From: an uncultured Oscillospiraceae bacterium
Lineage (GTDB): Bacteria; Bacillota; Clostridia; Oscillospirales; Oscillospiraceae
Reading direction: 5' to 3'
Length of the DNA stretch: 35,752 nt
Assembly: GCA_947623745.1 (NCBI GenBank)
Contig: CANQHN010000027.1
Location: 1 to 35,752, forward strand
The translations under genes were made by a program, and so were the position numbers. The notes under the pieces were generated by a model. It made no database searches. It had not been told where the DNA came from and saw only the letters and a program-made list of their open reading frames with translations. Shown piece by piece: positions 1-9,959 of the stretch (positions are counted from its first letter, which is position 1; every line of letters begins with the position of its first letter).

Positions 1-77
1 GTCCTCTGCCTTACGACATGCCCTCCAACGAGGAGCTGTTCGGCGAGTACAACGTCGAGGGTATGGACGAGGAGTAA
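1..77 (+). CDS. 3' end of an unidentified protein-coding gene (partial)
   Basis: The reading frame with codons starting at position 3 is open from the window edge and stops at TAA 75-77. It encodes a C-terminal tail ending NVEGMDEE. The visible 24 residues are acidic (seven Glu and two Asp) and show no domain. Such acidic tails occur on several large housekeeping proteins, RNA polymerase subunits among them, but the piece is too short to name. It is the last backbone gene before the mobile island. Confidence 0.6.
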   Translation, partial: PLPYDMPSNEELFGEYNVEGMDEE

Positions 78-110
78 TCCAGATCCAGCTCTCTTAAACC
101 TTGGCGATGA

Positions 111-132
111 CCGGGGGGCAGCCGCCCCCCGG
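111..132. repeat. GC-rich 9-bp hairpin downstream of the partial gene
   Basis: CCGGGGGGC (111-119) and GCCCCCCGG (124-132) pair perfectly around a 4-nt loop. No T-run follows, so it is not a textbook terminator; it may protect or pause the transcript of the upstream gene. The rest of 133-293 is GC-rich with several smaller hairpins (for example GAGCC/GGCTC near 183-196) and no credible gene. Confidence 0.6.
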
Positions 133-293
133 CCCTCCCGCCGGGCAGTTGACCCGGCCGCCTGATTTCGGGCCGCCGGATGAGCCGCCTGGCTCTTGAA
201 TCCGATTTCTCCTTTCTTGCGGGGAGAGCGGATGCCCGCGGTGCCCGCCGCCGGCAAGCCCCTCCGCCCTCTCCGCAGTGTCTCCTTCTTCCC

Positions 294-327
294 ATAAAAC
301 CCCGGTCCGTAAGGGCCGGGGTTTTAT
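294..327. terminator. bidirectional rho-independent terminator
   Basis: ATAAAACCCCGG (294-305) and CCGGGGTTTTAT (316-327) are perfect 12-bp inverted arms with a 10-nt loop. The GC core is flanked by A-tracts and T-tracts, so it could work in both directions. It sits between the truncated upstream gene and the left end of the island. Confidence 0.75.
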
Positions 328-357
328 GGTTCTTCGGAGGTCCGGCCCGCGTATCAT

Positions 358-400
358 AAAACGAGCGCCCGGCGTGAGGCCGCAGGCCATAAAACAGTAA
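358..400 (+). repeat. left end of the outer element (inverted copy of 8079-8121)
   Basis: AAAACG, CGCCCGGCG, GGCC and TAAAACAGTAA appear in the same order here and in the reverse complement of 8079-8121. The two copies have the same 43-nt overall length, with compensating 2-nt gaps. The inner part (ATAAAACAGTAA, 389-400) mirrors TTACTGTTTTAC (8079-8090). This arrangement fits recombinase half-sites flanking a shared GGCC core (385-388 and 8091-8094). Confidence 0.6.
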
Positions 401-476
401 TAGGAAATCTTTAACTATGGCAACTGTCAGACAGGATTGGAAAGAACCTAAGTCACATAACGAAACCAAAAGGGGA

Positions 477-668
477 ATGACTATGGAACTGACCTATACG
501 AAAGTTGGGGATTACCTGATCCTCAATCTGACAGCAGACACGGACGAAGATGCCAGCCTGCCCCCTATGGGCAAATATGGCCGCCTGCGGGAACGCTTTC
601 TCAAGGAGCACCACCACGGCACCGATACCTCCATGCTTCTGACGGGCAGGCTGGAGCCGCACCTGTAA
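477..668 (+). pseudogene. tnpV: TnpV-family transposon protein, N-terminal remnant
   Basis: The predicted product starts MTMELTYTKVGDY and includes a basic segment ending LLTGRLEPHL before a stop. This resembles the N-terminal half of the small TnpV proteins of Clostridial transposons (a TYTxVGDY motif, a basic helix and a LLTxGRL motif). Intact TnpV proteins are around 110-120 residues, so roughly the second half is missing. Similarity ends at about 664, where the sequence switches to a reverse-strand peptidase fragment, so this is a deletion or rearrangement junction. An AAAGGGGA-like ribosome site precedes the start. Family assignment is from remembered motifs. Confidence 0.6.
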
Positions 669-772
669 GCTTCCAACAGTTTTACAAACTTTGGGAATGT
701 GTTCAATGCGGCTGTGGCCTTTCTGTCAAGGTCGTGCATATAAAGCTCAGAACGATACGGCATAATTGTCAC
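665..772 (-). pseudogene. M48-type metallopeptidase, N-terminal fragment only
   Basis: Reading leftwards from ATG 772, about 36 residues (MTIMPYRSELYMHDLDRKA and onward to KLLEAY) resemble the N-terminus of M48-family peptidases often found in gut Firmicutes. After KLLEAY the frame runs into antisense TnpV sequence, so the catalytic HExxH part is gone. The start overlaps the stop of the upstream XRE gene by four bases (ATGA, 769-772), the usual sign of translational coupling in an operon. The gene was therefore probably intact before the rearrangement. Peptidase identity is moderately sure. Confidence 0.55.
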
Positions 773-1011
773 CTACCTGTACTCTTCTCTTTTGAAGAAT
801 CTTTTTCAGAATCCGGAACAAATTCAACAATGTCGTCCAGCTTACAGTCGAGAGTTGTGCAGAGCTTCTCCAGCACATTGACTCTGACATCCTCATTTCG
901 TCCAAGCTTGGCCATCGCGTTGGTGCTGATCCCAGCGAGGTGGGTCAGTTCTGTTTTGTTGATATTTTTGTCGACCATCAGTTTCCAAAGCTTCTTATAG
1001 CTGACCGGCAC
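769..1011 (-). CDS. XRE/Cro-type HTH transcriptional regulator (YozG-like)
   Basis: An 80-residue protein that is almost entirely a Cro/C1-type helix-turn-helix: a first helix around YKKLWKLMVDK, then NKTELTHLAGIS and TNAMAKLGR as the helix-turn-helix pair, and VLEKLCTTLDCKLDDIVEF as the closing helices. The C-terminal tail is charged (SEKDSSKEKSTGR). The start has a strong AGGAGG site six bases upstream and a good promoter at 1060-1088. It overlaps the M48 fragment by four bases. Small single-domain regulators paired with a peptidase gene are common on mobile elements; a role as local repressor is inferred. Confidence 0.85.
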   Translation of the reverse strand: MPVSYKKLWKLMVDKNINKTELTHLAGISTNAMAKLGRNEDVRVNVLEKLCTTLDCKLDDIVEFVPDSEKDSSKEKSTGR

Positions 1012-1059
1012 GATGAACCCCTCCTCATCTGAATTATTGGTATGTTAAGATTTGGTTGT

Positions 1060-1088
1060 AGTATATCATGCCAAAATTCAAAAGTCAA
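1060..1088 (-). promoter_or_regulatory. sigma-70-type promoter of the XRE gene
   Basis: On the reverse strand, TTGACT (1083-1088) and TATACT (1060-1065) are separated by 17 bases and lie about 50 bases upstream of the regulator start. This is close to consensus. Confidence 0.75.
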
Positions 1089-1103
1089 GTTTTTCTTGAG
1101 AAA

Positions 1104-1121
1104 CACAAGAATTCGCTTGTG
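1104..1121. repeat. short inverted repeat upstream of the XRE promoter (operator candidate)
   Basis: CACAAG (1104-1109) and CTTGTG (1116-1121) form a 6-bp dyad with a 6-bp spacer, just upstream of the -35 box. Position and symmetry would suit a repressor or activator site, but there is only one copy. Confidence 0.3.
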
Positions 1122-1335
1122 AGATTGAAGCTTGATTTGATATAGCCGTGCCTCAGATTGTTAGAGAAAAATCTACTGTTCAGATATCTCTGTAATTTTG
1201 AAAACATAGGTCCTATTCCCGCGCGGATGTGCGGGAAAGAGCGACCACCGGGCGCGATAAAGCCACGCCAAACGGCGTGTTCGACCGGGCGCGGAGCGGC
1301 CGGCCCGGGGCTTGGGCGGAGCCCAACAGGCGTTT

Positions 1336-1437
1336 CAGAATATGGTGTCCGCTATATCGCCATCAACGACAACTACGACACCAGCGACCCAAACAGCATC
1401 AACAACGACTTTGCAGGCATCCGGAATTGGTTCAATG
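1336..1437 (+). pseudogene. large serine recombinase, internal 5' remnant (left half of the split gene)
   Basis: The frame reads EYGVRYIAINDNYDTSDPNS and continues NNDFAGIRNWFN. This matches the second half of the catalytic resolvase domain of Clostridial large serine recombinases, where the family continues NEFYARDTSRKIRAV. That continuation is found at 6797 onward. The first roughly 95 residues expected for the family, including the catalytic serine, are absent. Upstream (about 1200-1335) is unrelated GC-rich sequence with no recognisable gene. The gene was thus N-terminally deleted and also interrupted by the inner element. Confidence 0.8.
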
Positions 1438-1445
1438 ACAATATC

Positions 1446-1459
1446 GCATAAAGCATGAC
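1446..1459 (+). repeat. left terminal inverted repeat of the inner element
   Basis: GCATAAAGCATGAC is the exact reverse complement of 6770-6783. In a circular form the two arms would sit symmetrically 10 bp either side of the AA core, like the arms of a serine integrase attP. Confidence 0.8.
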
Positions 1460-1747
1460 AACAACATCAGCGGTGTGGCGGTAATCGGAAATCCAAAATA
1501 TAAGACCAAACGCCCGTTTCCGGCGGCTGGAATATGTCAGCCGTATCGGAGATGGGCGCTTTATTTTGACAGGCTTATGTGGGAGCGTTTGTTCCTGCAA
1601 TCGTGCTGAAAATGAACTAATGCACTACGCTTCCCATTATCGCTAAAGGAAAATCGCCGGGACGTTTTCTATTCGACGTGGACAAAGATTTAAGGAGAAT
1701 AATTCGATTAACCGTCTTAACGGGCAGTAGATTTCTTCACATTTGGG
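1460..1747. other. non-coding left region of the inner element with nested hairpins
   Basis: There is no gene with a ribosome site here. CGGCTG (1524-1529) pairs with CAGCCG (1538-1543), inside a CGCCC (1511-1515) and GGGCG (1554-1558) stem that is followed by CTTTATTTT. This resembles a terminator that would block transcription entering from the left. The rest is AT-rich sequence leading to the cargo promoter. Confidence 0.4.
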
Positions 1748-1756
1748 TGATATAAT
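1748..1756 (+). promoter_or_regulatory. extended -10 promoter for the cargo genes
   Basis: TGATATAAT (1748-1756) is a perfect TGnTATAAT extended -10. No good -35 box is seen at the matching distance. It lies 64 bases upstream of the hydrolase start. Confidence 0.5.
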
Positions 1757-1820
1757 ATTAAATGTCGAATCGGCGATTATTCGACAAATCGGCTTTATTA
1801 TGGGAGGAAACTGCCTAATT

Positions 1821-2921
1821 ATGAAAACAGATTTTCATATTCATTTTGACGAGGAGCAATTTGCGGAACTTCGCCGCCGAATAAACATTACAAGATTGCC
1901 AAAGCCGATAGAGGGGGATAGCTGGTCTCTGGGGACGGATGTACAATACCTTTCATCACTTCTGACATACTGGCGTGACAGCTATGATTGGAAGCGGAAG
2001 GAAACTGAACTCAACCAATATCCGCAGTTTACCTGTGAACTGGATGGGGTGACAATTCATTTCTTTCATATCCCCGGTTCCCGCAAGGGCTCGCTGCCGC
2101 TGCTGTTGACGCACGGCTGGCCGGACAGCTTTCTTCGCTATGCGAAGGCGTTTCCGCTGCTCTCCGAATTTGACCTTGTGGTGCCCTCTCTGCCGGGCTT
2201 TGCATTTTCAACGCTGCCGCCGAAGGGCTTTCTCAATAACGCCGAGGTTGCGGAACTCTGGCATAAGCTGATGACCGAGGTGCTTGGATACAGGGAATAC
2301 ATAGCGTCAGGCGGCGATATGGGTCGAGGAGTAACGTGCTATCTGGCGACTCGCTATCCGAAAGAGGTCAGAGGAATATATCTTACAGATGTAGGCTCTG
2401 CGGGAGCCATTGTTGCGTCAGCGGATGATTCGCTTACACCTTCAGAACTGGACTATAAGCGCCGTGCACAGGAATGGACACGGATGGAGGGAGCCTATAT
2501 CAATATCAACAGTACTAAGCCCCAAACTCTGGCGTTTATGCTCAGTGATTCTCCGGCTGGGATGGCTGCGTGGATCGTGGAAAAATACCACGCTTGGAGT
2601 GACTGGCCTCTGCTGACGATGGATGACCTCTGCGATTGCCTGACTCTTTACTGGATGACGAACACGGGATATACCTCTATCCGTGCCTACCACGGAAACA
2701 GTTTTACATTGCCTCCGATGGGAGCAATCACCGTACCGACAGCCATTGCTGCCTTTCCGCATGATGTCCTTCCGGTGCCAAAGGAGTGGGTGGAAAAGCA
2801 CTATCCCGTGATCCAATACACCAATATGCCGCGAGGCGGTCATTTCACCGCATTGGAACAGCCAAAAGAGTTTGCAGAAGATATTACTCATTTTGCTGAT
2901 ATACTGGCAGATCGCGTGTGA
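1821..2921 (+). CDS. epoxide-hydrolase-like alpha/beta hydrolase
   Basis: A 366-residue protein with the layout of microsomal-type epoxide hydrolases: an N-terminal EHN-like segment (FHIHFDEEQFAELRRRI, LTYWRDSYDWKRKE), then an alpha/beta-hydrolase core. Visible motifs are the oxyanion HGWPDS, the probable nucleophile Asp in SGGDMGRGV, and a late GGHFTALEQP holding the catalytic His. Family members open epoxide rings by way of an Asp ester; the true substrate is unknown. ATG 1821 is preferred because it follows a GGAGG at 1803-1807, and EHN homology starts right after it; an in-frame upstream extension exists. It ends four bases into the next frame, and the GNAT gene follows. It is cargo of the inner element. 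Confidence 0.8.
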   Translation: MKTDFHIHFDEEQFAELRRRINITRLPKPIEGDSWSLGTDVQYLSSLLTYWRDSYDWKRKETELNQYPQFTCELDGVTIHFFHIPGSRKGSLPLLLTHGWPDSFLRYAKAFPLLSEFDLVVPSLPGFAFSTLPPKGFLNNAEVAELWHKLMTEVLGYREYIASGGDMGRGVTCYLATRYPKEVRGIYLTDVGSAGAIVASADDSLTPSELDYKRRAQEWTRMEGAYININSTKPQTLAFMLSDSPAGMAAWIVEKYHAWSDWPLLTMDDLCDCLTLYWMTNTGYTSIRAYHGNSFTLPPMGAITVPTAIAAFPHDVLPVPKEWVEKHYPVIQYTNMPRGGHFTALEQPKEFAEDITHFADILADRV

Positions 2922-2968
2922 GGAACATTCTTTTTGAATTGAACAGATCGGGCTTGAGGAGGCTGCAA

Positions 2969-3490
2969 TTGAAAAGGGATTATTTCATAAGAACAAAAAG
3001 GATCGGGTTTTCAGAATGGACATCAAATGATATTGTATTCGCTGAGCTTTTATGGGGCGATAAGGCTGTTACAAAGTATATTTGCAGCAGCGGAGAGTTT
3101 AGCCGCGAGGATATTGAAGCGCGATTGCAACAGGAGATCCGCAATCAAAAAGAATATCATGTTCAGTATTGGCCGATTTTTGAACTGAAGTCAAATGAAT
3201 TTATTGGATGCTGTGGTCTAAGACCACATCAGGCGGGTGTATACGAAATCGGGTTCCATCTGCGGCCTGTGTTTTGGGGACAGGGTTATGCCGTTGAAGC
3301 CGCAAGAGCCGTCATTCAATATGCGTTTTCTTCCCTGCGGGCAGAAGCACTTTTCGCCGGTCACAATCCGAAGAATACGGCTTCCCGACACGTTCTGGAA
3401 AAGCTGGGATTTCGATATATCGGGGATGAGTATTATGAGCCGACCGGGTTATATCATCCCTCTTACAAATTATCTCTGAAGCAGGACTGA
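2969..3490 (+). CDS. GNAT-family N-acetyltransferase
   Basis: 173 residues of a single GNAT (Acetyltransf_3, RimJ/RimL-like) domain: an N-terminal strand region with TKRIGFSEWTSND, a central FIGCCGLRP strand, then the acetyl-CoA pyrophosphate loop in RPVFWGQGYAVEAARAVI, and HNPKNTASRHVLEKLGF, the usual late helix. It would transfer acetyl from acetyl-CoA to an amine on a small molecule or protein; the substrate is unknown. The start is TTG 2969, six bases after TGAGGAGG (2955-2962); an upstream GTG at 2918 has no such site. It is in a cargo operon with the hydrolase and the YjbR-like gene. Confidence 0.85.
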   Translation: MKRDYFIRTKRIGFSEWTSNDIVFAELLWGDKAVTKYICSSGEFSREDIEARLQQEIRNQKEYHVQYWPIFELKSNEFIGCCGLRPHQAGVYEIGFHLRPVFWGQGYAVEAARAVIQYAFSSLRAEALFAGHNPKNTASRHVLEKLGFRYIGDEYYEPTGLYHPSYKLSLKQD

Positions 3491-3556
3491 AAATTCCCGC
3501 TTGTCAGAGAGACAATGAAGACAGCAAATTGGGATTTACGGAGGTGACGATACTCC

Positions 3557-4216
3557 ATGTTTGAAGATATTTTTCTGCGAAAAAAGGCTGTTCTTGAAAA
3601 GCTGGATGCCTATGGCTTTCGGAAAATCCGAAACCATCGCAAATACGACACGGATATGTTAAATGGCGAATTCCGCTTGGAAATCACCATCGGTAAGAAT
3701 TCTGTGCCGGATACGAAACTGACGGAAATTGCCACAGGCGAGGAGTATGTTCTTTACAAAACAGACGCAGTTGGTACATTTGTTGGCGAGGTTAGAACGA
3801 CTGTAACAAATATCTTGCAGGATATCGCCGATCGCTGTTATGAAACGGCGGTCTTCAAGGCGGAGCAGTCCGTTGCGCTTATTGCCTATGTCCGTGAAAA
3901 ATACGGGGATGAACTGGAATACTCGTGGGATAAATTTCCCGATAATGCTGTCTGGCGCCGGAAGGACAATGAAAAATGGTACGGTGCGTTACTGACTGTT
4001 TCCCGTCGCAAACTCGGCGTCCCGTCTGATGAGATTGTGGAGATCATCGACCTGCGCACCGTGCCGGAAGTAATGGAGGATCTCATTGATAACACTCGTT
4101 TCTTCCCCGGTTGGCACATGAATAAGAAGCATTGGTACACAATCATTTTGGACGGAACGGTTTCGACGGATGAAATATGCCGCAGGGTGGATGAAAGCTA
4201 TTTGCTGGCAAAGTGA
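3557..4216 (+). CDS. MmcQ/YjbR-family protein with N-terminal extension
   Basis: 219 residues. The C-terminal half (from about residue 118) has the MmcQ/YjbR pattern: KFPDNAVWRRKDNEKWYGAL, then DEIVEIIDLR, a PGWHMNKKHWYTIILDG stretch and a final helix with DESYLLAK. The first 115 residues are a separate domain I do not recognise. YjbR-like proteins adopt a CyaY-like fold and are annotated as DNA-binding, but their role is poorly known. The start follows GGAGGTGA (3540-3547) by nine bases. It is the third gene of the cargo set, 66 bases after the GNAT gene. Confidence 0.8.
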   Translation: MFEDIFLRKKAVLEKLDAYGFRKIRNHRKYDTDMLNGEFRLEITIGKNSVPDTKLTEIATGEEYVLYKTDAVGTFVGEVRTTVTNILQDIADRCYETAVFKAEQSVALIAYVREKYGDELEYSWDKFPDNAVWRRKDNEKWYGALLTVSRRKLGVPSDEIVEIIDLRTVPEVMEDLIDNTRFFPGWHMNKKHWYTIILDGTVSTDEICRRVDESYLLAK

Positions 4217-4530
4217 ACATAAGGACAAATTCCTGCTTATCGCCCCGTCCATAAAACTGAATATCGAAAATCAGACCGTTGACACACCGGATTCCCGGTG
4301 GAAAAGCCAACGGCCTTTTCAAACTTAAAGGGTGTGGGAATCCCACGAAAGAAGCAGGTGGGTACTCACCGGATTTGCTTGCTGCCCCTCCGGGGGCAGC
4401 GGGCAAAAATCCGAAGTGTAGCCACACCTGATTTGCTTGCTATTCTCAAAAACCTGAAAACTCTCCCCACGTCCTGCACGGGATTTTCAAAAAACTTTTC
4501 CGAACACGAACACTTTTTCGATAAAACCCG
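4217..4530. other. non-coding region between cargo and recombinase module
   Basis: No gene with a ribosome site is visible. It holds hairpins (CACCGG/CCGGTG near 4285; GCTGCCCC 4381-4388 with GGGGCAGC 4393-4400), a GTGGGAATCCCAC palindrome near 4334, and a 17-nt direct repeat. In related elements such stretches can hold an origin of transfer or be the scar of lost genes; neither can be shown here. Confidence 0.4.
4367..4441 (+). repeat. 17-nt direct repeat, two copies 58 bp apart
   Basis: CACCGGATTTGCTTGCT (4367-4383) and CACCTGATTTGCTTGCT (4425-4441) differ at one base. A GC hairpin lies between them. They may be protein-binding iterons or part of an oriT, or a small internal duplication. 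Confidence 0.6.
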
Positions 4531-4559
4531 TTGACACGAACATACGTTTCTGTTACAAT
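4531..4559 (+). promoter_or_regulatory. strong promoter of the leader/recombinase unit
   Basis: TTGACA (4531-4536), 17 bases, then TACAAT (4554-4559). Transcription would start near 4566 and give a leader of about 280 bases before the first downstream ORF. Confidence 0.75.
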
Positions 4560-4668
4560 AATCTCGACAGATGCAATAACGCTCTGCCCCTCTTTTCCCA
4601 TTTGGGACAGCCGTGATTTTGCGCTCCACGTTTGAGCGTTCAAAGGGACGGCAAAGAGGAATATTGAC

Positions 4669-4692
4669 ATGGCTGTGCTATGGAGCCGCTGA
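4669..4692 (+). CDS. putative leader peptide MAVLWSR
   Basis: ATG GCT GTG CTA TGG AGC CGC TGA, preceded by AGAGGA eight bases upstream, gives a seven-residue peptide. It ends 15 bases before the terminator stem, a fit for a ribosome that covers the 5' arm when it stalls. It has no known homologue that I can name. It could also be a chance ORF. Confidence 0.45.
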   Translation: MAVLWSR

Positions 4693-4706
4693 CAAGGCGA
4701 AGTCTT

Positions 4707-4766
4707 CCTAAGCCGCATGACTGGAGTTTTCCGATGGAAAACTCTGTTATCGGCTTGGGATTTTTT
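4707..4766 (+). terminator. leader terminator hairpin with T6
   Basis: CCTAAGCCG (4707-4715) pairs with CGGCTTGGG (4751-4759, one G-T pair), enclosing a perfect inner hairpin GAGTTTTCC/GGAAAACTC (4724-4744), and is followed by A and six T (4761-4766). It lies inside the transcript between the leader peptide and the next ORF, so it would be conditional. Confidence 0.6.
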
Positions 4767-4846
4767 CTTTGCCGGTCATGCGGCTCCTTCGTTTTCTTCC
4801 TCTTGTCGGGCTTCTCCGCGCAGCGGAGAAAAACGGAGGTATTGAG

Positions 4847-5062
4847 ATGAACGAGAACGAAAAGAGCAAAGATTTCAAGCTGGAAGAACTGTTCCCCATT
4901 ATCAAACATCAGGGGCGGGAGTTTCTTTGCCTGCCCACAAAAACCGAAATGGAGATGGAGGACGGCACGGTCTATCATGTCAACACATTTTACGGCGGCA
5001 GCACCGAGATGGGGCCTCTCCTTGATGCGCTCACCCTCGAAAAAATCGACAGGGTGGGCTGA
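4847..5062 (+). CDS. small hypothetical protein upstream of the recombinase
   Basis: 71 residues, acidic and with no membrane segment: MNENEKSKDFKLEELFPIIK, then HQGREFLCLPTKTEMEMEDG, VYHVNTFYGGS and a helical end. It looks like a small folded beta-strand protein of unknown function. An ACGGAGG site lies seven bases before ATG 4847. It stands 92 bases ahead of the recombinase and behind the attenuator-like leader, so it may be an element-borne regulator or directionality factor. That role is only inferred from position. Confidence 0.65.
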   Translation: MNENEKSKDFKLEELFPIIKHQGREFLCLPTKTEMEMEDGTVYHVNTFYGGSTEMGPLLDALTLEKIDRVG

Positions 5063-5070
5063 GGTCCTAC

Positions 5071-5099
5071 TGGAATCATGGGCGGTGCTGTGGTATAAT
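5071..5099 (+). promoter_or_regulatory. possible separate recombinase promoter
   Basis: TGGAAT (5071-5076), 17 bases, TATAAT (5094-5099), 55 bases before the recombinase start. The -10 box is perfect and the -35 box weak. It would make recombinase expression partly independent of the leader. Confidence 0.5.
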
Positions 5100-5154
5100 G
5101 AGATAGGATTTCTGATTACCATACGCACTGCATATTGGGAGGTAAAAGAAAAAT

Positions 5155-6765
5155 ATGCAGGAAAATTACAACGTAGGTATCTATGCGCGGCTGAGCCGCG
5201 ACGATGAAAGAGCCGGGGAATCTGTTTCAATCGAAAATCAAAAGGAACTGCTGACCCGGTACGTCAGAGAACAGGGATGGAATCTCTATGATTATTACTG
5301 CGATGATGGCGTTTCTGGGACGACGTTCGATAGACCGAGCTTCAACCGGCTGGTGCAGGATGCGACGGATGGGAAGATCAATCTGATTTTGACCAAAGAT
5401 CTCAGTAGGCTGGGTAGAGATTACATCGAGGCTGGCCGGTATACGGATTTCGTTTTTCCAAGCCTCGGCTGTCGGTTCATCGCACTCAACGATGGCGTGG
5501 ATACCATGCACAAGAATAATGAAATGCTGGTCATTCTGAAAAATGTGATGAACGACCTCTATGCGCGGGATACCAGCAATAAAATCAAGGCGGTAAAGCA
5601 ATCCACGTTTAAGAGCGGCAAGTATGTCGGATGCTACGCTCCGTTAGGCTACAAAAAGAGCGCGGACGACAAGCACGTTTTGGAGATCGACCCGGTGACT
5701 GCGCCGGTGGTGCATCACATTTTCGACCTCAGACTGCAAGGCAACGGATTCCGAAAGATAGCGATACAACTCAACACAGAGGGTGTTCCCGCTCCGAGAA
5801 CTTTCTACTACATGGCTGAGGGTAAAGAAAATCCTCGCGGTGAGACTCCGTACTGGAATGACGTGACTGTAAAGACGATTCTCCGCAACGAGGTTTACAT
5901 CGGTCACATGGTACAGAACAAGACGGGTACGGTGTCCTATAAGAACCACAAGCAGATTTCCAAGCCGAAAGAGGATTGGATCAAGGTTGAGAATACCCAT
6001 GAGCCTATCATCTCTCAGGAAACGTGGGACGCCGTTCAGCGGATGGACAACCACCCGTCCAGAAGCAGGACGGGCAAGAGCGGAACGATTGCTCTATTCG
6101 GAGGACTTCTGCGGTGCTTGGATTGCGGATCTTCTTTTCGCTTTGTGAGGGACTACCGCACAAAACGAAAAGCGTCCGAGTATAAGGCTTATGCCTGCAA
6201 CCGTTTTATGTCGGGTGGCAAAATTGCCTGTTCCTCGCACTACATCAACGAGAAGGCTCTGGTATCTGTGGTGCTGACCGATATTCGGAACAAAGCGTTC
6301 TTCGCCCAGCAGAGCCGCGAAGCCCTCAAAGAGCGGATACTCGCCAAGAAAGAATCTGCCAACGCAGAACGGGCGAACACTCTGAGAGCGGAACTGTCCG
6401 CGCTGGACAAGCGACTTGCCGAACTTGAAAAGCTGATCCAGGCTGCCTATGAGGATAAGGTCATGGGACGTATCCCGGAGAGTGTCTGTATCCAGCTTCT
6501 GAACAAGTACGAAGCGGAGCGGACGGAGAAGCTGGAGCGTAAAAAGGACATCTCCGCGAAGCTGGCAACCAGCCGGGCAAACGAGCAGTCGGTTGACGAT
6601 TGGCTGGACATGATACTGGACTACACCCAGCTTGAGGAGCTTGACCGTCCCACCCTTGTCAGGCTCATTCAGAAAATCGAGGTCGGCGAGAAATATCAGG
6701 TGAATGACCACATGGAACGGGACATCAACATCTACTACAATTTCGTAGGCTTTGTGGAACTGTAA
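5155..6765 (+). CDS. large serine recombinase of the inner element (TnpX/TndX type)
   Basis: 536 residues and apparently intact. The N-terminal resolvase domain (about 1-150) starts YNVGIYARLSRDDERAG with the catalytic Ser at residue 14, and has DDGVSGTTFDRPSFNRL and TKDLSRLGRDYIEAGRYTDF. The middle Recombinase domain holds SGKYVGCYAPLGYKK and NEVYIGHMVQNK. A zinc ribbon follows (CLDCGSSFRF with YACN and ACSSH), then a long coiled coil (about 395-480). It cuts att sites with a covalent Ser link, integrating and excising the element. The start follows GGGAGG by about eleven bases. The start codon lies in an arm of a small inverted repeat (5130-5136 with 5152-5158). It ends 30 bases before the inner right end. 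Confidence 0.95.
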   Translation: MQENYNVGIYARLSRDDERAGESVSIENQKELLTRYVREQGWNLYDYYCDDGVSGTTFDRPSFNRLVQDATDGKINLILTKDLSRLGRDYIEAGRYTDFVFPSLGCRFIALNDGVDTMHKNNEMLVILKNVMNDLYARDTSNKIKAVKQSTFKSGKYVGCYAPLGYKKSADDKHVLEIDPVTAPVVHHIFDLRLQGNGFRKIAIQLNTEGVPAPRTFYYMAEGKENPRGETPYWNDVTVKTILRNEVYIGHMVQNKTGTVSYKNHKQISKPKEDWIKVENTHEPIISQETWDAVQRMDNHPSRSRTGKSGTIALFGGLLRCLDCGSSFRFVRDYRTKRKASEYKAYACNRFMSGGKIACSSHYINEKALVSVVLTDIRNKAFFAQQSREALKERILAKKESANAERANTLRAELSALDKRLAELEKLIQAAYEDKVMGRIPESVCIQLLNKYEAERTEKLERKKDISAKLATSRANEQSVDDWLDMILDYTQLEELDRPTLVRLIQKIEVGEKYQVNDHMERDINIYYNFVGFVEL

Positions 6766-6769
6766 ACCC

Positions 6770-6783
6770 GTCATGCTTTATGC
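6770..6783 (-). repeat. right terminal inverted repeat of the inner element
   Basis: GTCATGCTTTATGC is the exact reverse complement of 1446-1459. Thirteen bases separate it from the GA that reopens the outer recombinase frame, or ten from the AA core. Confidence 0.8.
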
Positions 6784-6795
6784 AAGGTTGACTAA

Positions 6796-8026
6796 CGAGT
6801 TCTATGCGCGGGATACCAGCCGGAAGATCCGAGCGGTCCAGAAGGCGAAAGGAGAGCGGGGCGTACCGCTGACCACCAACATCCCCTATGGCTACAGGAA
6901 GGACCCGGAGAACCCCAAACGCTGGATCGTTGACCCGGAGGCCGCCGCTGTTGTAAAGCGCATCTTCGAGCTGTGCATGGAAGGGCGAGGGCCGTTGCAG
7001 ATCGGCAAGGCACTCACCAGAGAGAAGGTGCTCAACCCTACCGCCCATAAGCTCAGACAGGGGTTGAACCCGCCTCATCCGACACCCGAGGACCCGTATT
7101 ACTGGAATGACAGCACGATTGTCAATATTTTAGAGCGCCGGGAGTACACTGGCTGCACCGTCAACTTCAAGACCTACACCAACTCCATCTGGGACAAGAA
7201 GCAAAGGGAAAATCCCATCGAAAAGCAAGCTGTGTTTCCCGGCACTCATGACGCCATTGTGGATGACGATGTGTTTCAGAAGGTCCAGGAGATCCGCCAG
7301 CAGCGGCACCGTATGACGCGAACAGGCAGGAGCAGCATTTTCTCTGGCCTGGTATACTGCGGCGACTGCGGCGCGAAGATGCAGTACGGTTCGTCCAACA
7401 ACGGCGACCCCAGGCAGGATTTTTTCGATTGTGCCGTCCACCGCAAGCACAAGGAGAAGTGCCCCACGCACTTTATCCGAGTGTCGGTATTGGAACAGGT
7501 AGTCCTGAAGCACGTCCAGGCGGTCACGGATTACATCCTGCGCTATGAAGATCATTTCAGGGCGCACATGGAGGAACAAATGCGGCTGGAGACGAGCGAG
7601 CAGGTCCGGGTCCGCAAGAAAAAGCTGGAACGGGGCGAAAAGCGTATCGCGGAGCTGAAACGGCTCTTCATGAAAATCTACGAGGATAACGCCTGCGGAC
7701 GGTTAAGCGACGAGCGGTTCGATATGCTGAGCCAGAACTACGAGGCCGAGCAGAAGGAGCTTGAGGCAGAGGCTGCCATCCTACAGCATGAGATCGAGAT
7801 ACAGGAGCAGCAGAACGAGAGCATTGAGAAGTTCATCCAGAAAGCCCATAAGTATATGGGGATAGAGGCCCTCGACGGGTATTCTCTGCACGAGCTGGTG
7901 TCCGCGATCTATGTGGATGCCCCAGACAAGAGCACCGGTAAGCGGCAGCAGCACATCCACATCAAGTACGACGGGCTTGGCTTTATCCCGCTGGATGAAC
8001 TGATGAAGAAACGGGAAACGGCGTGA
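6796..8026 (+). pseudogene. large serine recombinase, C-terminal part (right half of the split gene)
   Basis: The frame resumes as EFYARDTSRKIRAVQKAKGE and runs about 400 residues to a stop at 8026. It has the Recombinase domain (VPLTTNIPYGYRK, ILERREYTGCTVNFKTYTNS), a zinc ribbon (YCGDCGAKM with DC and KCPTHF), a coiled coil (EQVRVRKKKLERGEKRIAEL onward) and a C-terminal tail. This is the typical C-terminal three quarters of another Clostridial large serine recombinase. It continues the fragment at 1336-1437. With no N-terminal catalytic domain or start of its own, it should be inactive. An in-frame ATG at 6773 in the inner element could allow a truncated product. Confidence 0.85.
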
Positions 8027-8078
8027 CCGAAGCCACGCCGTCCCTTTGAAAACTCTCGCTTTCAGCCAGTTTGAAGTT

Positions 8079-8121
8079 TTACTGTTTTACGGCCACCCGG
8101 CGTGTCCGCCGGGCGCGTTTT
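8079..8121 (-). repeat. right end of the outer element (inverted copy of 358-400)
   Basis: TTACTGTTTTAC (8079-8090), a GGCC core (8091-8094) and then CGCCGGGCGC plus GTTTT (8107-8121) mirror the left end. It lies 53 bases after the outer recombinase stop, where right ends of such elements normally are. If the flanks are rejoined at GGCC, GCGCCCGGCG (365-374) and CGCCGGGCGC-GTTTT (8107-8121) make a terminator-like hairpin. Confidence 0.6.
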
Positions 8122-8148
8122 CCGAAAATAACCGTTTGAGCAGTAGAC

Positions 8149-8784
8149 TCACAGGCTGGAGTAGCCGTATTTGTCCACCAGCGCGTCCACCTCAAGTCCC
8201 TTGGCGCACATGGGGCAGGTCTCGGGGGAGTAGCTGGCGTAGTCGGTCAGGTCAGAGGCGTTGAACAGGGAGACCACGGGGACGCCGTCCACCTCGTCCA
8301 TGAAGCTGTAAATGGAGGCAATACCCGCCACGTTGCCGCCATAGTAGCGCACGCAACGGGTGGCCTGCTGGACGGTGCCGCCGGTGGTGACGGCTGCCAG
8401 GAGAATCAGCACGTTCTTCCCCTTCAGCATGGGCAGGACGTTGTCCCGGAAGATGAGCTTCCCGTTGATATACACGTTGTCCTTCAGCAGATAGATGTCC
8501 TCCCCCGCGTTCATGGAGCGGTAACCGCCCTCTGTGAGCTGCTGGGCCAGGCAGGTGCCGATGGTGCGGGTGTTGTCCATGCAGACGATGGTATCCACCA
8601 TGGTCAGCTGGAGCTTACTGGCCAGCTGCCGGGCGACGGCGCTGGCCTCCTTGAGGCTGCAGCGCTTGGAAGTCACGTCGATGAAGTAGTTGGTGTGGCT
8701 GTTCCTGGTGGCAAAGTGGCCCTTGGCGACCCGCAGCGACACGTCACCTACGCTTGTGGGGATCTTATAGAATTTCGGTTCCAT
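8149..8784 (-). CDS. phosphoribosyltransferase-fold protein with degenerate PRPP loop
   Basis: 211 residues that resemble type I phosphoribosyltransferases of the orotate/xanthine kind: an N-terminal hood region, a central IVCMDNTRTIGTCLAQQL strand-helix, and the PRPP loop near residues 125-137. That loop reads VLILLAAVTTGGT, where active enzymes have two acidic residues (pattern VLIVDDVxTTGGT); here they are Leu129 and Ala130. The TTGGT phosphate-binding part remains. It may therefore bind a phosphoribosyl ligand without catalysis, or use an unusual site. CPMC near the C-terminus could bind metal. Start at 8784 with AGGAGG just upstream. It is the first backbone gene right of the island. Confidence 0.7.
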   Translation of the reverse strand: MEPKFYKIPTSVGDVSLRVAKGHFATRNSHTNYFIDVTSKRCSLKEASAVARQLASKLQLTMVDTIVCMDNTRTIGTCLAQQLTEGGYRSMNAGEDIYLLKDNVYINGKLIFRDNVLPMLKGKNVLILLAAVTTGGTVQQATRCVRYYGGNVAGIASIYSFMDEVDGVPVVSLFNASDLTDYASYSPETCPMCAKGLEVDALVDKYGYSSL

Positions 8785-8836
8785 TTGACTGCCTCCTTTT
8801 TGATTCCGGACGGTGTGCGCTAGTGAAATTTACTAA

Positions 8837-8865
8837 ATTATAGCATCGTTTTTCCGGAATGTCCA
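8837..8865 (-). promoter_or_regulatory. promoter of the PRTase-like gene
   Basis: On the reverse strand, TGGACA (8860-8865), 17 bases, TATAAT (8837-8842). The leader is only about 45 bases, too short for a purine riboswitch. Confidence 0.7.
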
Positions 8866-8929
8866 TACATTATTTCTCATCTTGCAAAAAAAAGAGGAGA
8901 CAGCCCCCTATCTTCTCTCCGTGGGCAGG

Positions 8930-8967
8930 AAAAAGGGCGGGCGCACAGGTGTGCACCCGCCCTTTTT
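8930..8967 (-). terminator. rho-independent terminator of pta
   Basis: AAAAAGGGCGGG (8930-8941) pairs with CCCGCCCTTTTT (8956-8967), extended inside by GCAC/GTGC. T-tracts flank both sides, so it may also stop forward transcripts. Confidence 0.85.
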
Positions 8968-8981
8968 GTTTCTCTATGCAG

Positions 8982-9959
8982 TTACTCGGCCAGAGCGGCG
9001 GTGATGATGGCCATGGAGTAGACCTCCTGGGCGTTGCAGCCCCGGGACAGGTCGTTGATGGGGGCGTTCAGGCCCAGCAGGATGGGGCCGTAGGCGTCGA
9101 ACCCGCCCAGACGCTGGGCGATCTTGTAGCCGATGTTGCCGGCGTTGATGTCGGGGAAGATGAAGGTGTTGGCGTAGCCGGCCACGGGGGAGCCGGGGAA
9201 CTTCAACTGGCCCACAGTGGGGGACACGGCGGCGTCGAACTGCATCTCGCCGTCCACGGGGATGCCGGGCATGGCCAGCTTGGCCTTCTCGCAGGCGTTG
9301 CGCATCTTGTCCACGTCCTCGCCCTTGCCGGAGCCCTTGGTGGAGTAGCTCAGGAAGGCCACCTTGGGGTCCACGCCGAAGATCTGGGCGCACTTGGCGG
9401 TCTCCACGGCGATCTCCACCAGCTCGTCCTCGTCGGGCTTGATGTTGATGGCGCAGTCGCCCATGGCCAAGACCTCGTTGTCGCCGGTGCCGCGGCTGCG
9501 GACCATGATGAAGCAGGAGGAGACGATCTTGTTGCCCGGCTTGGTCTTGACCAGCTGCAGGGCGGGACGGACGGTGTCGGCGGTGGAGTAGGTGGCGCCG
9601 CCCAGCAGGGCGTCGGCCTCACCCATGGCCACCAGCATAGTGCCGAAGTAGTTGCCCCGCTTCAGGGTGGCGCGGCACTCCTCGGCGGTCATCTTGCCCT
9701 TGCGCAGGGCCACCATCTTCTCCACCATGGCGTCCATATTCTCGTAGGTCTCCGGGTCGATGATGATGGCGCCGCGGATGTTCCAGCCGGCCTCCTCGGC
9801 GGCGGCCTGGACGGCCTCCGGGTTGCCGATGAGGATGGGGGTCAGGTAAGTACCGGAGAGCAGGCGGGCGGTGGCCTCCAGGATACGGGGGTCAGTGCCC
9901 TCGGTAAAGACGATCTTGCGGGGGTGCTTTTTCAGGATCTCGATGAGCTTTTTGAACAT
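8982..9959 (-). CDS. pta: phosphate acetyltransferase
   Basis: 325 residues, the usual length of the short Pta class. It converts acetyl-CoA and phosphate to acetyl phosphate and CoA, the step before acetate kinase in acetate fermentation, in the cytosol. Visible family features are KIVFTEGTDPRILEATARL at the N-terminus, EADALLGGATYSTADTVRPA, the FIMVRSRGTGDNEVLAMGDC segment and the C-terminal FPDINAGNIGYKIAQRL followed by GPILLGLNAPINDLSRGC. The start at 9959 is chosen because GGAGGAA lies upstream; 21 more residues would be in frame but lack homology. It is a single gene between its own promoter and terminator; no ackA is in the window. Confidence 0.96.
   Translation of the reverse strand: MFKKLIEILKKHPRKIVFTEGTDPRILEATARLLSGTYLTPILIGNPEAVQAAAEEAGWNIRGAIIIDPETYENMDAMVEKMVALRKGKMTAEECRATLKRGNYFGTMLVAMGEADALLGGATYSTADTVRPALQLVKTKPGNKIVSSCFIMVRSRGTGDNEVLAMGDCAINIKPDEDELVEIAVETAKCAQIFGVDPKVAFLSYSTKGSGKGEDVDKMRNACEKAKLAMPGIPVDGEMQFDAAVSPTVGQLKFPGSPVAGYANTFIFPDINAGNIGYKIAQRLGGFDAYGPILLGLNAPINDLSRGCNAQEVYSMAIITAALAE

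Follow-up and report, generated by a model that had tools for sequence, protein, structure and literature searches.

Apparent site-specific integration of a small serine-recombinase element at a conserved codon of other recombinase genes

The window analysed here, the whole of a 35,752-bp contig (C27) in a draft genome of an uncultured Oscillospiraceae bacterium (3.05 Mb in 76 contigs), carries a small element that interrupts a large serine recombinase (LSR) gene and encodes an LSR of its own. From sequence comparison, we consider it highly probable that this LSR-driven element of the DUF4368, Tn4451/Cp36-like clade integrated site-specifically, by crossover at an AA dinucleotide, into a conserved codon of the catalytic domain of another LSR. 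Comparison with relatives places the ends, the AA core and the precise mode of integration, and documents repeated use of the same LSR codon together with use of other sites; judged from the flanks, the preference for LSR genes is strong but not exclusive. The pattern suggests that one mobile element can serve as the landing site of another.

Ends and core of the inserted element

The element lies on the forward strand at 1434..6795 (5,360 bp plus the second AA core), and the insertion and boundaries proposed by a first-pass annotation of this DNA are confirmed by junctions that are sharp and common to the relatives and by homologous intact genes that run unbroken across the site. Three uninterrupted homologues in the same genome, on contigs C1, C30 and C16, match the window from 1342 or 1347 to 1438 and again from 6794 onward as a single continuous stretch, and place window positions 1434-1438 and 6794-6798 on identical bases. 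The search for uninterrupted sites that had been proposed also returned an empty site (L118) for a filled relative (L040), with the left flank 95% identical over 104 bp and the right flank 94% identical over 602 bp; the two flanks overlap by exactly 2 bp, which read AA.

At the left end (attL arm, 1434..1459, forward strand), the core AA at 1434-1435 is followed by a 10-bp spacer and the inverted-repeat arm GCATAAAGCATGAC (1446-1459). At the right end (attR arm, 6770..6795, forward strand), the arm GTCATGCTTTATGC (6770-6783) is followed by a 10-bp spacer and the core AA at 6794-6795, and the end is kept through CTAA in close relatives. The repeat is perfect over 14 bp with each arm exactly 10 bp from the core, as first described, and extends to 21 nt at 86% identity. 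Its length and identity do not in themselves set it apart; a second 21-nt pair at 86% lies in the same region (3129-3149 and 6118-6138). The ends are convincing above chance because they recur in relatives, at 12 left ends (the window's included) and 44 distinct right junctions. At all 44, element identity runs to CTAA (TTAA in L013) and the next base is variable, and across subfamilies the right end can be superimposed as CTTTATG, 11 bases and then AA.

The core of TnpX is GA, and a TnpX-type GA core had been entertained alongside the AA that was preferred on grounds of symmetry. The left ends of relatives at 71% identity read AATGCC, AATGGC, AATGTC or AATACC, and GA cannot be the common core because these ends do not begin AATGA. 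Together with the right-junction alignment they rule out GA and, with the 2-bp overlap at L040 and L118, settle the core as AA as far as sequence allows; the serine-recombinase mechanism is likewise supported. Read in the frame of the host gene, the right end (window 6752-6800) encodes MLYARLTNE in the window and LLYARLSND in L034, a right end of the 71% relatives, a resemblance to the LSR active-site motif Y-A-R-L-S that is possibly a coincidence.

The interrupted gene is a second DUF4368 LSR, different from the element's own. Its left fragment (1342..1435, forward strand; about 31 codons, about 94 bp) ends at an Asn codon, and its right fragment (6794..8026, forward strand) runs from the Asn codon to the stop and carries Recombinase, Zn_ribbon and DUF4368 domains. 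Because the 5′ part of the gene is missing, joining the flanks restores the frame across the site, as had been claimed, and not a complete gene. Homology to intact LSR genes begins at about 1342, and the sequence upstream is unrelated and GC-rich. A GC-rich block at about 1216-1343 sits in place of the 5′ part, with a 91% copy at G000:C32:89-217; an Rfam scan of window positions 1-9000 gave three weak matches, none up to the gathering score, and no match in the block. Eight two-ended LSR insertions were compared, and the 5′ part of the host gene is disrupted in five of them (the window, L029, L032, L035 and L040) and intact in three (L030, L037 and L041); outside these eight, the host gene at L161 has N- and C-terminal parts. 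The neighbour at L035 is the end of another LSR gene.

Target sites across the family

Relatives whose recombinases are about 50-100% identical to the window LSR were collected by a protein scan of genome contigs (45 loci, 38 with a usable right end), an end-pattern search of 400 family genomes (7 matched) and a protein-level search through 394 genomes of the order (9 matched); viral contigs were also searched. By right flank these occupy 55 distinct sites, 44 in the main right-junction alignment and a further 3 and 8 from the later searches, a site being counted as LSR when its right flank matches an LSR protein. On this count 34 of the 55 lie in LSR genes, 30 of them in sense at the same Asn|Glu/Asp (N|E) codon, three inverted at that codon (L033, L150 and L154) and one (L038) inverted at the N-terminal LSR motif N-Q-K-A-I. 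Eighteen sites have no LSR match. The remaining three are ambiguous: L037 and L045 match an LSR on the left flank only, and L147 has 74 bp of flank with no significant LSR match, only its last residues S-F-R-N-I-M looking LSR-like. The first-pass annotation had taken attB to be a conserved catalytic-domain codon of a rival recombinase, which agrees with the 30 sense and three inverted sites and fails as an exclusive rule at the other 18. It had also held that insertions outside recombinase genes would speak against any target preference; such insertions do occur, and they remove exclusivity while leaving a strong preference in place.

The preference spans recombinases 51% to 98% identical and is seen with relatives at 79-82%, 61-65% and 51%, with LSR-gene sites in two of the three relatives of about 51% identity. 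Because the 27 target LSR fragments are diverse (21 clusters at 70% identity and 8 at 50%, with a median pairwise identity of 37.5%), a conserved motif rather than a single gene appears to be targeted. The window's own genome holds 31 recombinase stretches. Three encode LSRs of the element itself; of the remaining 28, four carry an end of the element family at the N|E codon, and the one of these four on C28 is diverged, with no element LSR beside it in that survey.

Seven of the 45 loci were dropped for want of a usable right end (L046, L048, L050, L056, L058, L059 and L063), and the left flank of L048 has no LSR match. Also dropped were L067, where the end pattern stands alone, lacking the remainder of the element's end, and no LSR matches (its inclusion would give 19 non-LSR sites), L146, whose right end is not recognisable, and, as repeats of counted sites, L068, L072, L073, L076, L140, L142, L143, L145, L148 and L153. 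L070 was merged with L026, L069 with L047 and L065 with L064, again as repeats. L144, with a slightly altered right end, and L036, whose match is its own read-through open reading frame (ORF), were counted as non-LSR, and L154 as an inverted LSR site on a 54% LSR match. Plasmid records gave no DNA match to the element and 840 phage records all fell below 60% identity; in the viral contigs the protein search gave one relative and the end pattern two stretches, of which one lay on that same contig.

Orientation may follow the core. Genome G194 holds a lineage at 61-65% identity with TT at the core position. Of its three insertions, two (L150 and L154) lie inverted in LSR genes, which puts AA on the gene strand opposite the element's TT; the other is the ambiguous L147. 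The three share ten further bases, CATGATATTG, after TT; they come from one genome with left ends not recovered, and their exact boundary rests on alignment with other subfamilies. The combination of a TT core and inversion is a hint in the sequences of what a polarity-setting core would predict. L033, inverted with AA as its core, is at odds with that prediction. Two inverted insertions, at L038:1720 and L045:11656, have near-identical first 12 flank bases (AATAGCCTTTTG and AATTGCCTTTTG), a possible second preferred site.

A further regularity lies at position +5 after the core, which is T or A in 30 of 30 sense targets and C or G in none, whereas those two bases occur at 7 of 22 uninterrupted LSR sites that have an AA core and lie outside the element's own gene (Fisher test, p = 0.0013 with 30 targets and p = 0.0023 with 26), the compared rows being related rather than independent and 31 of the 60 LSR loci giving no recognised intact site. 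Within the element's own LSR gene, all 12 rows examined at 60% identity or more read C at this position, and the three relatives at 51% read T. The sense target fragments are only 29-36% identical to the window LSR, so no sense target comes from the element's own LSR family. Exemption of the element's own gene through the +5 base is possible, and is a lead rather than a result.

Explanations for the preference and relation to known systems

Several observations weigh against integration at the LSR codon as the full account of this family. Specificity is relaxed at the 18 sites without an LSR match, 13 of which are copies from rabbit-gut metagenome-assembled genomes (MAGs) that belong to the group nearest the window (91-100% identical), and copies closest to the window (with 89-100% identical LSRs) occupy both LSR and non-LSR sites. 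L033 (L033:5669-11657) has an AA core and is inverted at the usual codon, with AA at both junctions though TT was expected from the gene strand. No circular joint was found with one exact pattern searched for in viral contigs. Nor does a consensus of the right half-site explain the LSR preference: a matrix built from 17 non-LSR right half-sites places 26 LSR sites only between the 62nd and 98th percentiles of AA positions, the non-LSR sites themselves having a leave-one-out median at about the 95th. A secondary-site consensus as the cause of the preference is thus unsupported, on the right half alone and with 17 training sites, most non-LSR sites being seen at the right end only.

We propose that the enzyme would recognise the DNA sequence that encodes the motif N-[ED]-x-[YFL], around its Asn codon, in the catalytic domain of other elements' LSRs. 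LSR genes abound in these genomes, the cell can do without them, and they travel on other mobile elements (we infer this last point for each target gene), so they would offer a widely available and harmless landing site. Integration would disable the occupied LSR until the newcomer excises, excision would restore the reading frame exactly, and the disabling of rivals would be a consequence. That LSR codons serve simply as a common, harmless sequence preferred by the enzyme, with no antagonism involved, seems to us somewhat more likely than not. The 31 recombinase stretches in a 3.05-Mb genome represent many sites, and integrative mobilizable elements (IMEs) in maff2, snf2 and traG (PMC5704250) and IME_Rho_tet in MAFF2 (PMC12904643) are parallels in the available text of those papers; taken alone, however, a harmless site leaves unexplained the absence of C and G at +5 in targets against the C in the element's own gene. 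That same contrast (C in 12 of 12 own-gene rows of at least 60% identity, C or G in 0 of 30 targets and 7 of 22 uninterrupted sites) would be expected of a dedicated strategy in which the element evolved to switch off competitors' LSR genes, its own gene being exempt by a codon difference; the spread of targets over at least 21 clusters at 70% identity and the lack of any sense target fragment from its own LSR family point the same way. We nevertheless hold such a strategy, which the first-pass annotation had suggested in the form of killing competing elements, to be unlikely, since the own-gene +5 base is T in the three 51% relatives, the +5 rows are related with 31 of 60 LSR loci lacking a recognised intact site, 18 of the 55 sites are not in LSR genes, and the window's host gene is truncated and may have been dead before the insertion. 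Quite unlikely is the composite picture of an LSR-element lineage specialised on other elements' LSR genes, self-exempt by one codon (Leu, C at +5), flipping its orientation as the core passes from AA to TT, and forming a reversible off-switch on rivals.

Two other accounts were also weighed. Near-random insertion at AA, with copies persisting only in dispensable LSR genes, draws on the general knowledge that these genes are dispensable and on the existence of non-LSR sites. It is contradicted by the single-codon pattern: such a gene is about 1.6 kb long, and 33 of 34 LSR insertions share a single codon. We reject it as very improbable because survival alone cannot select one codon. An origin of the junctions in chimeric assembly of repeated LSR genes is scarcely credible: the material does consist of draft genomes and MAGs, with many contigs broken within LSR repeats and one chimeric-looking LSR (on C12), but the same boundary appears in many assemblies, including isolates and a complete genome (L041, Oscillibacter valericigenes AP012044), and at non-LSR flanks. 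Site-specific integration by a sequence-preferring LSR remains the account that we favour.

Like mobilizable transposons of the Tn4451/TnpX type, the window element has its LSR at the right end, a 2-bp core and TnpX as its closest solved relative by sequence (chain 2mhc_A, residues 8-117); unlike the Tn4451/Tn4453 family, its core is AA rather than the GA of TnpX, and no relaxase was found by Pfam among its five ORFs scanned. It also resembles elements of the skin and fdxN type, in which a serine-recombinase element splits a gene that could be restored on excision, but it bears no sign of programmed excision and its host is a truncated recombinase gene.

With the multi-targeting DUF4368 clade (Cp36, TndX-like), as described in the available parts of Durrant et al. 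2022 (PMC10083194), the family shares the Resolvase, Recombinase, Zn ribbon and DUF4368 domains, the AA core of Cp36 (read as TT from the opposite strand) and integration at over three unrelated targets (21 LSR clusters at 70% and 18 non-LSR sites). T stands at +8 in 13 of 17 and at +9 in 15 of 17 of its non-LSR sites, which may reflect the A-rich 5′ and T-rich 3′ attB of that clade, the 5′ side being mostly unavailable. The family differs in preferring a fixed codon in LSR genes; the target-gene enrichment in those parts of PMC10083194 concerns only LSRs outside the DUF4368 clade. Elsewhere, in the sections available, LSR elements are nested inside a conjugative transposon (PMC3158075), IMEs insert in maff2, snf2 and traG of integrative and conjugative elements (ICEs) (PMC5704250), and IME_Rho_tet occupies MAFF2 ORFs (116/256; PMC12904643). 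Like these IMEs, members of the family lie repeatedly and precisely in one conserved gene of other mobile elements; unlike the IMEs in ICE genes, their target is the recombinase gene itself, and the window element is only 5.4 kb, with no relaxase found in it but one present in the 51% relative L041. The enzyme clade, of multi-targeting, AA-core LSRs, is already known; literature searches limited to open-licence papers turned up none that describes LSR genes as a preferred attB, and the available text of PMC6907783 has nothing on the target. The nearest parallels in that literature are LSR elements that enter host genes, or genes of ICEs with transfer or accessory roles. If the favoured attB is the catalytic codon of other LSRs, the family would offer a direct, testable case of elements parasitising and silencing each other's recombinases, and a natural test both of core polarity as the determinant of orientation, in the AA and TT lineages, and of the way in which an integrase spares the gene that encodes it.

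Gene content and observations on relatives

The element's own LSR (5155..6765, forward strand; 536 aa) has Pfam matches to Resolvase, Recombinase, Zn_ribbon_recom and DUF4368. Directly upstream is a small ORF of 71 aa (4847..5062, forward strand) without a Pfam match; an 88-aa ORF occupies a like position in the 71%-identity relatives, homology between the two not being established. The cargo, all on the forward strand, comprises an epoxide-hydrolase-like alpha/beta hydrolase (1743..2921; Pfam EHN PF06441 and Abhydrolase), a GNAT acetyltransferase (2918..3490; PF13302) and a YjbR-domain protein (3557..4216; PF04237). Outside the element, a TnpV-like gene (417..668, forward strand; PF14198) and a Cro/C1-type helix-turn-helix regulator (769..1011, reverse strand; PF13443) probably belong to the older host element.

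Among the relatives, the 51% relative of Oscillibacter valericigenes encodes a relaxase (L041:8242-9465) and, because of this gene, may be an IME. A relative in an LSR gene (L030:2615-11657) carries Cas5, Cas7 and Cas3 genes with a Csd1-like match below the Pfam cut-off, a type I-C-like set, and no CRISPR repeats were found in the two stretches searched beside these genes. At L024:122-1776 and L025:2051-3705 the element's own LSR gene is met, near codon 95, by a different LSR gene together with that gene's downstream end, so that nesting here probably reaches a third level; the end pattern of this second nested element (X), at up to one mismatch, occurred in 0 of 300 family genomes. At G000:C12:74165-76278 (L009), an ORF runs in frame from the N-terminal portion of a different LSR into the element's LSR, either a recombination product or an assembly chimera.

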